Of a DNA stretch of 52,819 nucleotides, positions 25,696 to 48,144 are shown one piece after another. Under the pieces are notes generated by a model that ran no database searches, was not told where the DNA came from, and worked only from the letters and a program-made list of their open reading frames with translations. The DNA is from Thermoplasmata archaeon (GTDB lineage Archaea > Thermoplasmatota > Thermoplasmata > Halarchaeoplasmatales > Halarchaeoplasmataceae): the NCBI GenBank assembly GCA_003551065.1, contig PULU01000092.1, positions 1 to 52,819 on the forward strand. Direction: 5' to 3'. The first letter of the stretch is position 1. Each line of letters opens with the position of its first letter. The translations under genes and the position numbers were made by a program.

Positions 25696-25704
25696 GTGAT
25701 ATTT

Positions 25705-25866
25705 TTATTCATCTATTTTTTCAACATCTTCTTCTATTATCAAAACTCCGATGTAGTCACAATCCCTACATTGATATTTATATCCAGTCATCATACCCGC
25801 TATTGTAATGACGTCCGTACTACCACATTTTGGGCACCTTTTGATTTTTCTAGTTATAGTTATCAT
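25705..25866 (-). CDS. 53-aa zinc-ribbon protein
   Basis: Hand translation: MITITRKIKRCPKCGSTDVITIAGMMTGYKYQCRDCDYIGVLIIEEDVEKIDE, two CxxC knuckles; below track cutoff. Confidence 0.8.
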   Translation of the reverse strand: MITITRKIKRCPKCGSTDVITIAGMMTGYKYQCRDCDYIGVLIIEEDVEKIDE

Positions 25867-25877
25867 CCTTTTTTAGG

Positions 25878-26094
25878 GGTTGTCCCCTGGCCGTAACAGT
25901 AGGGTTCATCGTTTGGGACATCCATCTCCCCGTCCTGACTCTAACCAGGGGCATGTTCGGTCCTGGGGTTGTTCCTCGGTCACAGGAGGACAGCTCGTCC
26001 TGACCTCACAAGGGGACCCATCAGAACCATGTCCTGCACTTGCATCACGGTTCATCGTCCTGGGAAACTCATCGTGACCTTCTATACAGGACAA
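25878..26094 (-). ncRNA. Candidate structured non-coding RNA (identity unknown)
   Basis: GC-rich island (118/210 by hand count over 25881-26090) in AT-rich intergenic DNA; several potential hairpins; TATA-like TATAATA on the minus strand ~25 nt upstream of ~26094. Confidence 0.6.
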
Positions 26095-26206
26095 TAAAAA
26101 TATGTGCAAAGTATTATATCAATCCTCCGGAAAACTGGAATAAAGACGAAAAGTATAAATAATTTGGAATTTAGATATTTACATAATCTGGCGATGGAGG
26201 AACCTA

Positions 26207-26686
26207 ATGCCAAAAGGCCAGTACAGCGACGAAAGAATATTGCTAATCGCAAGCTATCGAGAGGAATATGACAAAAAAGCTCTCAGAAAGATTAAGAGAC
26301 TTATTTTAAAGATCAAACCTGATAGGGTAATAGTTACGAAGATCATAGAAGAGGAATCCACTCCAGAACTTGTAGATGCCGCTATTGGTATGGAAGAGAA
26401 GAAAGATTTTTTAGAGACCGTTCGTGAAGAAAAAAAGCACAAAGCGGATGAATATGCAGAAGGTTTGGTCAAGTTACTGAAATCTATGGATATGCCTACT
26501 GAAGTCCGTTTGAGGAAGACTGACCACATCTCAGAAGAGATAATCGACGATTATCAGAAGATCGGAGTTGATTACGTTATAATACACAGGAAGACAAAGG
26601 ACCCAATAAGCAGAGCATTGGGTGGTTCGACTGCAAAGAAAGTAAAAAAAGAACTACCTGATAAAAAAGTGATACCTGTAGATTGA
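26207..26686 (+). CDS. Universal stress protein-like protein
   Basis: ILLIASYREEYDKKALRKIKRL...VDYVIIHRKTKDPISRALGGSTAKKVKKELPDKKVIPV. Confidence 0.65.
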   Translation: MPKGQYSDERILLIASYREEYDKKALRKIKRLILKIKPDRVIVTKIIEEESTPELVDAAIGMEEKKDFLETVREEKKHKADEYAEGLVKLLKSMDMPTEVRLRKTDHISEEIIDDYQKIGVDYVIIHRKTKDPISRALGGSTAKKVKKELPDKKVIPVD

Positions 26687-26748
26687 TTTTTTCGGTTTAC
26701 ACATACTTATCCAAAAATCTTTTATTACATCCTAAGAGATGTTGGACT

Positions 26749-28569
26749 ATGTCTATCGTAAGGTTGGGTAAATTACACCTACATTGGTGTAAAAATTGTA
26801 ACGTCCCTATCGTAGAAAAGGGTGAGTGTGGGATATGCTCCGATGAAGGTAGTCAAGTTAAGATCACACCCCCAGGTGATGTACGGCCTGCTTTTGGATC
26901 TGATATCGCACTCATAAAAGAAATCATAGATAAACAGTGGGGTACTTCTTATTCCGACAATATCTTAGATCAAAATGATGTTGTACTTCTGAATAGTTCC
27001 CCCCATCTAGATAGGATGGACGAGGTCATAATCGATGGTCGAGTAATCGGTAATTTACGTTATAATGTCTTCAAGAAAGCTAGAGGAGAAGAACCCTATG
27101 AATTCCTCATCCGTCCCTGGGACGGTCTTGAAGAACCAGAGAGAGGTTATGTAATCGTTGACCGAGGAGCTGTCAATCCGATACTGAACGGGGCTAGTAT
27201 ATTGGCACCAGGAATAATTGATGTTCATGAAGATATCGACGAGGGCGACGAGGTATTGATATTGGATAAAGATCTTGACGTCATCGCCACGGGTCCAGCC
27301 CAGATGGATGCCCAAGAGATGAAAACATCCGATCATGGAAAGGCAGTTAAAAACCGCTGGAGGATCTCTGATAATACATCGAATGGTATTTCGAACGATT
27401 GGGATAAGGTTTTGGAGGCCAATAAACATCTTATAAAAAGAAGAGTAGAAAAGGCTATCAATTTCATAAAAAGAGAGATAAAAAAGAATGATCTCCCTCT
27501 AGCGGTGGCTTACAGTGGTGGGAAGGACTCTTTAGCAACACTTCATTTGGTTTTACATGCTGAAGTCAAACCAGACCTAATGTTTATCGATACTGGCATC
27601 GAGTTACCAGAAACCGTTGAAAATGTAACACATATCGCTGATAAACATGACCTTGATCTGATTTCAAAGAAGGCTGAAAGTGGATATTGGAATAATGTGG
27701 ATCACTTTGGCCCATCTGCTCGAGATTATAGATGGTGTTGCAAAACATGTAAGCTAGGTCCGACAGCTCTTTTGATCGATAAAAATTATCCCGAGGGTGT
27801 TCTGTCATTCATTGGTCAGCGAAGATATGAATCCAAGCAAAGGATGGATAAGGGTAATACTTGGGACAATCCATGGGTCCCGGGTCAGGAATCTGCCTCA
27901 CCTATACAGGAATGGACCGCATTGCATGTTTGGATGTACCTTTTTATGAAGGATGCCGACTATAATCCACTCTACGAAGAAGGTTTTGAAAGGATTGGAT
28001 GCTGGCTCTGCCCAGCTTCAGACCTAGCAGAGTTTGAATCTTTAGAAAACAGATATGATGAGTTCCATAAGCTCGATGAAATGCTTGACGACTTCAAGGA
28101 AAAAGCAGGACTTCCTGGCATATGGAAAGATCTAGGCATGTGGAGGTGGATCGATATTCCTAAAAATATGCAGGAAATATTGGATATTACAGATGAAGAG
28201 TCTATAACTGAGATTGATACCGATATCCCGAAACCCCAAATACCAGATATGCTTGAGGATAAGAGAACCAGGGAATTATTACAGATCATACTTTCTCTAG
28301 ATGATATATTACCAACCGAAAACTGTGATGTAGATGAGCTCCTCGACACGGTCAATAAAAATGGATTAGAACAAGATGAGATATATGAGATATATTTGAA
28401 GGCAAGGTATTGCACCGAATGTGGCATCTGTGTAGCTAGATGTCCCAACGATGCATTGTCTTTTGAAGATGGGATCTCGATATCGTCGGAAAAGTGTAGT
28501 AGCTGTAGGATTTGTTTAGGTAAATGTCCTGTCGTTGAATATCATCAAAGAGTTATTTTGAAAGATTGA
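26749..28569 (+). CDS. PAPS reductase-family protein with N-terminal zinc ribbon, PUA-like domain and C-terminal 2x[4Fe-4S] ferredoxin domain
   Basis: CKNCNVPIVEKGECGIC; PP-loop LAVAYSGGKDSLATLHL; WCCKTCKLGP; GCWLCPASDLAE; CTECGICVARCPNDAL and CSSCRICLGKCPV. Start set to MSIVRLGK. Confidence 0.88.
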   Translation: MSIVRLGKLHLHWCKNCNVPIVEKGECGICSDEGSQVKITPPGDVRPAFGSDIALIKEIIDKQWGTSYSDNILDQNDVVLLNSSPHLDRMDEVIIDGRVIGNLRYNVFKKARGEEPYEFLIRPWDGLEEPERGYVIVDRGAVNPILNGASILAPGIIDVHEDIDEGDEVLILDKDLDVIATGPAQMDAQEMKTSDHGKAVKNRWRISDNTSNGISNDWDKVLEANKHLIKRRVEKAINFIKREIKKNDLPLAVAYSGGKDSLATLHLVLHAEVKPDLMFIDTGIELPETVENVTHIADKHDLDLISKKAESGYWNNVDHFGPSARDYRWCCKTCKLGPTALLIDKNYPEGVLSFIGQRRYESKQRMDKGNTWDNPWVPGQESASPIQEWTALHVWMYLFMKDADYNPLYEEGFERIGCWLCPASDLAEFESLENRYDEFHKLDEMLDDFKEKAGLPGIWKDLGMWRWIDIPKNMQEILDITDEESITEIDTDIPKPQIPDMLEDKRTRELLQIILSLDDILPTENCDVDELLDTVNKNGLEQDEIYEIYLKARYCTECGICVARCPNDALSFEDGISISSEKCSSCRICLGKCPVVEYHQRVILKD

Positions 28570-48044: not shown

Positions 48045-48144
48045 TAGCGGGGAGTGGATTTGAACCACTGGTCTCCGGGTTCCTCAGGTGCATTTAGCTG
48101 CACCATATGAGCCCGACGGGTTTTCCTAGCTACCCTACCCCGCT
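48045..48144 (-). tRNA. Initiator tRNA-Met (CAU) with 25-nt intron at 37/38
   Basis: Cloverleaf AGCGGGG/CCCCGCT acceptor, D-arm GGGT/ACCC, anticodon stem TCGGG/CCCGG with loop CTCATA^A, T-arm AGTGG/CCACT. Intron 48081-48105 forms BHB: CTCA/TGAG 4-bp helix with 3-nt bulges TAT and GAA. No encoded CCA. Confidence 0.93.

Follow-up and report, generated by a model that had tools for sequence, protein, structure and literature searches.

The GC-rich island at 25881-26090 of the 52.8-kb window (by which we mean the whole stretch of DNA analysed, 52,819 nt) most probably belongs to a diverged homolog of HgcG/Pab40 (RF00064), a minus-strand H/ACA guide RNA of three hairpins that scores below the Rfam cut-off. 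We put the probability of this reading at roughly 0.93. It is built on homology, on conserved structure and on complementarity to rRNA, the last with one co-change of guide and rRNA. The biology of the island RNA is that of an ordinary, known RNA type, nearly all of whose relatives in this archaeal class are missed at the standard Rfam cut-off.

The island is set apart by its composition. An exact recount agrees with the 118 G+C in 210 positions (25881-26090) that the first-pass annotation had counted by hand; the flanks have 32.6% (25700-25880) and 29.7% (26095-26205) G+C, and the whole window 39.9%. Across the window there are 14 segments of 210 bases with at least 118 G+C, all starting at 25867-25884, and the island is the sole GC maximum of its kind. 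The motifs described earlier are likewise in place: minus-strand CAGGAC at plus coordinates 25932, 25960, 25997, 26031 and 26057, with an inverted copy at 26087, a 10-mer repeated at 25903 and 26049, and several potential hairpins. GTCCTG occurs 16 times on the plus strand of the entire window, and five of these copies are inside the island. Nothing unusual is needed to account for the repeats: the kink-turns of hairpins I and III have ACGAUGAACC as their 3' strand, and the CAGGAC copies sit in lower and apical stems and in the guide arm of hairpin III. A dispersed repeat was rejected as a candidate, a second copy being absent from the genome. Single-sequence folding energy is unremarkable (minus-strand z of -1.67, plus-strand z of -0.73); taken alone it is weak evidence for a structured RNA, and the comparative data carry the case.

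The identity of the RNA comes from Rfam. A local scan without a cut-off matched RF00064 on the minus strand (26146-25876) with 38.7 bits and an E-value of 2.9e-9, from end to end of the model (1-276 of 276), at half the curated gathering cut-off of 77 bits. The next best matches are chance matches, with E-values of 1.3 and above. Because 38.7 bits falls below the 77-bit cut-off, the default Rfam scan misses the island RNA: run at curated cut-offs, it is silent on the island and reports only a tRNA far away. The covariance-model check proposed in the first-pass annotation thus does return a known family, though only below its gathering score. What that annotation called an unrecognised structured RNA is a structured minus-strand non-coding RNA with a promoter-like TATA element, as it had supposed, but ‘unrecognised’ does not hold for a diverged RF00064 member. 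SRP RNA, RNase P RNA and C/D box RNA were also considered; none has an Rfam match at cut-off, and besides HgcG the local scan is empty below an E-value of 1. The earlier failure to match SRP RNA is therefore borne out, and RNase P RNA, which had been weakly suggested, finds no match. No tRNA or tmRNA was found at the island. Elsewhere in the window, a tRNA of ~100 nt (48045-48144, minus strand) is matched by Rfam with 51 bits and missed by ARAGORN with default settings; its length suggests an intron.

Gene layout and covarying structure

On the strength of the RF00064 match and of homologs throughout the class, we place the guide RNA gene at 25881..26095 on the minus strand, with the 3' end set by the last ACA box and the 5' end estimated from the spacing to the TATA element. 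This TATA-box-like promoter element, GGATTGATATAATAC (26111..26125, minus strand), lies ~20-25 nt upstream of hairpin I. Relatives have a TTTAAATA/TTGAAATA/TTAATATA-like column at an equal distance from the RNA, consistent with promoter function. Three things place the RNA on the minus strand, from which transcription had originally been proposed: the homology search, the TATA-like box conserved in relatives, and the logic of the guides.

All three hairpins are read on the minus strand. Hairpin I (26030..26095) consists of a lower stem (26085-26093 / 26030-26038), the guides GAAG (5', 26079-26082) and GCAAG (3', 26039-26043), and the kink-turn CGAUGAACC (26049-26057). Hairpin II (25954..26029), which is supported by covariation, has a lower stem (26022-26029 / 25957-25965), a pocket with the 5' arm AUGGGU (26016-26021) and the 3' arm ACAACCCC (25965-25972), a GA stem followed by the apical stem GGAC/GUCC (25988-26000), and an ACA box (25954-25956). 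Hairpin III (25881..25951), supported by covariation and by its target match, has a lower stem formed by CCCCUGGUU (25943-25951) and GGCCAGGGG (25884-25892), the guides AGAGUCA (5', 25936-25942) and GUUAC (3', 25893-25897), the kink-turn residues GA (25927-25928) and UGA (25906-25908), and an ACA box (25881-25883). Hairpins II and III of the window's RNA each have their ACA box exactly 14 nt past the pocket, counted from the first bases of AACCC and GUUAC, respectively. The ANA box of archaeal guides generally lies at a spacing of 14-16 nt, which narrows to 14-15 nt in productive guides (PMC4652768).

Comparison with related genomes, which the first-pass annotation had recommended together with covariation analysis, revealed a conserved and strongly covarying structure. 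In an alignment of 29 sequences, 84% of cells pair and 24 of the 29 pairs change on both sides. Double-change cells number 160, against a mean of 55.5 in shuffled alignments and at most 53 when the alignment is slid, and the covariation score is 0.516 against 0.227 for shuffled data. Column pair 22-58 is occupied by AU (11), GC (11) and UA (5), and column pair 33-45 by GC (13), CG (9), AU (3) and UA (2). The lower stem, internal pocket and upper stem of the H/ACA type are all supported by covariation. For the hairpin II lower stem, 47 of 48 cells are paired within the window's family; the figure across families is 58%, where this stem is poorly aligned. The tandem-GA kink-turn columns GA and UGA are invariant or near-invariant in hairpins II and III, and the ACA ending is conserved. 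The register of the hairpin III GA stem in the window's family is one base off from that of other families.

Distribution across the class and the neighbouring zinc ribbon

Of 61 genomes searched with the RF00064 model, 32 gave a match to the RNA, and only one exceeded the 77-bit cut-off, a cut-off that is conservative for this class. One sequence of the 29-sequence alignment, which also includes the window's RNA, passes the RF00064 cut-off with 78.7 bits (L004) and so links the alignment group to the RF00064 family. We also built a covariance model of hairpins II and III from the 29 sequences; the window's RNA is among them, and the Rfam model is independent of them. This model found the RNA in 126 of 161 class genomes at E <= 0.01, nearly always as a single copy. 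Among the genomes listed as having no match to it, most belong to one family, f17, and nearly all other families have the RNA. Many f17 genomes are 99% complete (e.g. G037, G046 and G054), and our model finds no RNA in this family; it was either lost or is too diverged. An rRNA guide RNA is thus conserved and nearly universal in an archaeal class where default annotation misses it, and the 29-sequence model, with its strong covariation, is a better annotation tool for it.

The 53-aa zinc-ribbon ORF (25705..25866, minus strand) starts 14 nt after the ACA box of hairpin III, outside the guide RNA. This proximity had led to the proposal of a structured leader; akin to a riboswitch or attenuator, such a 5' leader would control the zinc-ribbon gene. 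The two are adjacent in all 13 of the 13 family loci tested, and with so short a gap the zinc ribbon may share the promoter of the RNA. The zinc ribbon is conserved across the class, but it adjoins the RNA in the window's family only; in other families it lies on other contigs or kilobases away, and the RNA is still present. Because the RNA is found across the class without an adjacent zinc ribbon, a leader function is disfavoured. Nor would a leader need an ACA-box ending and pockets complementary to rRNA, and no cis-regulatory Rfam family matches at its cut-off. We consider this function very unlikely and regard the zinc ribbon as a neighbour that may be co-transcribed with the guide RNA. 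A Usp-like gene lies upstream on the opposite strand, and a convergent proteasome-activating ATPase gene is nearby. The window also encodes, at 26683-28569 on the plus strand, a 628-aa protein with PUA, PAPS-reductase and ferredoxin-like 4Fe-4S domains.

Predicted targets in 23S rRNA

Hairpin III is predicted to guide modification of a single uridine. The hairpin III guides GAGUCA and GUUAC pair with GUAAC-U-A-UGACUC of the 23S rRNA at 11 of 11 positions, with no mismatch; the 23S gene of the window genome lacks its second half and ends before the target site, and the match was taken from members of the same family. This site is the helix-69 loop, with the predicted target uridine equivalent to E. 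coli U1915. In a scan that covered 23S rRNA only, the U1915 equivalent ranked first of all 23S uridines for hairpin III across 18 genomes with both the RNA and a 23S gene (26.1 versus 17.7 for the next), and a perfect match arose 34 times in 200,000 trials with shuffled guides. The guide also follows its target. In the window's family the 23S sequence UGACCC has become UGACUC, and the guide GGGUCA has become GAGUCA alongside it. GAGUCA occurs with UGACUC in all four family genomes (4/4), and 19 of the 28 other genomes combine GGGUCA with UGACCC; of the remaining nine, six are f6 genomes whose guide is degraded and three have near variants. This co-change probably arose only once on the tree. 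The f6 sequences (L130-L135) have altered guides in hairpins II and III (CCAACG and [AC][AC]GUCA, the latter a degraded hairpin III 5' guide) opposite unaltered target rRNA, which suggests altered specificity or decay; the U1915 equivalent ranks only fourth there. The same position has been assigned to Pa40.3 and Af4.3 (PMC4652768), and is targeted by Pf7 stem III and, in vitro, by Pab40 and Afu4; it corresponds to H. marismortui 1956 (PMC2584109). Complementarity thus predicts that hairpin III acts on the helix-69 counterpart of E. coli U1915, numbered 2016 in P. abyssi.

Hairpin II would address one 23S site, for which there are two candidates. Its arms ACAACCCC and AUGGGU best fit GGGGUUGU-U-C-GCCCAU, the equivalent of E. 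coli U2555 (21.7 versus 15.1 for the next site); the U2586 equivalent is among the alternatives ranked after it. This A-loop uridine at the U2555 position lies beside tRNA-binding bases, and the duplex would be unusually long, with 8 bp and as many as 9 bp more. Pairing there requires the ACA box to be 16 nt away; at its 14-nt spacing, hairpin II points instead to GGGUU-U-A-GACC, the equivalent of E. coli U2586. The rRNA has changed at the U2586-equivalent site in four genomes, and in three of them the hairpin II guide does not follow. A guide-rRNA co-change in G055 was dropped as support for U2586, as three genomes with a like rRNA change keep the old guide. That hairpin II was retargeted in this class, from P. 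abyssi 1932 / H. marismortui 2621 to the A-loop U2555 equivalent, is a tentative idea that we rate as somewhat doubtful, and the data hint at a middle hairpin that changes its target between lineages.

The arms of hairpin I, GAAG and GCAAG, fit CUUGC-U-A-CUUC in the 23S rRNA of the family, at the equivalent of E. coli 2496. Judged by the distances between numbered sites, this position would be P. abyssi 2588, for which there is experimental support as the target of Pab40.1 (PMC6138745). An automated target scan constrained by the ANA box missed the hairpin I site, mainly because most genomes with a full 23S gene are without a hairpin I of the CGAAG/GCAAG type. Several other families have an ANA box 14 nt after the hairpin I pocket; in the window's family UGG (26027-26029) stands at this distance, and in one family member (L031) hairpin I is lost, with a short hairpin in its place. 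Hairpin I looks degenerate in the window's family and may be inactive.

The state of hairpin I, together with the ambiguous target of hairpin II, could be taken to mean that the island RNA derives from an H/ACA RNA, has lost guide activity and now serves as a scaffold or antisense RNA. Hairpin III speaks against this, having every canonical feature tested and perfect complementarity to rRNA and tracking a change in its target, and we give such a loss an extremely slim chance. A protein-coding stretch is vanishingly improbable: a 67-aa minus-strand and a 65-aa plus-strand ORF are both open across the island, but neither matches Pfam, and the homologs differ by compensatory changes and by single-base indels that break the frame.

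Proposed mechanism and comparison with known guide RNAs

Under the guide RNA reading, a single-copy local member of the HgcG/Pab40/Pf7/Afu4 family would be transcribed from the minus strand (~26095 to 25881) and form three hairpins. In each, a kink-turn would bind L7Ae, and an internal pocket would pair with rRNA and expose a single uridine for Cbf5 to convert into pseudouridine: the U1915 equivalent in hairpin III, the U2555 or U2586 equivalent in hairpin II, and, in hairpin I as the counterpart of Pab40.1, pairing at the equivalent of E. coli 2496. Transcription, RNP assembly and pseudouridylation are the steps that sequence comparison leads us to expect. All ten genomes tested, the window genome among them, encode Cbf5; Nop10 is present in the nine tested relatives and was not found in the window genome, which is 64% complete. 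The guide RNA reading makes specific pseudouridine sites in helix 69 and in the peptidyl-transferase region testable in these archaea.

The closest known systems are HgcG/Pab40 of P. abyssi, Pf7 of P. furiosus and Afu4 of A. fulgidus, which, like the island RNA, have three tandem H/ACA hairpins in equal order with their own promoter. The island RNA matches the HgcG/Pab40 covariance model from end to end, though with 38.7 rather than 77 bits, and shares with Pab40 hairpin III the guide logic and the predicted target uridine (P. abyssi 2016, E. coli 1915). The reported site of Pab40 hairpin II is P. abyssi 1932, whereas ACAACCCC of the island appears to fit a different site best. Also unlike Pab40, the window's family has lost the ANA box of hairpin I and has a zinc-ribbon gene directly downstream. 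In H. volcanii, HP2 is the homolog of hairpin III and has the U1915-equivalent target, and HP1 is the homolog of hairpin II, proposed for H. marismortui 2621, the U2586-equivalent candidate here (PMC2584109). HP1 and HP2 form a system of two hairpins with a long spacer, whereas the island RNA has three that are nearly contiguous. The Pyrobaculum H/ACA-like RNAs sR201-sR210 share with the island RNA the principle of pocket, kink-turn and ANA box; most of them are without a lower stem (PMC4652768), whereas in the island RNA the lower stem is present and covaries.
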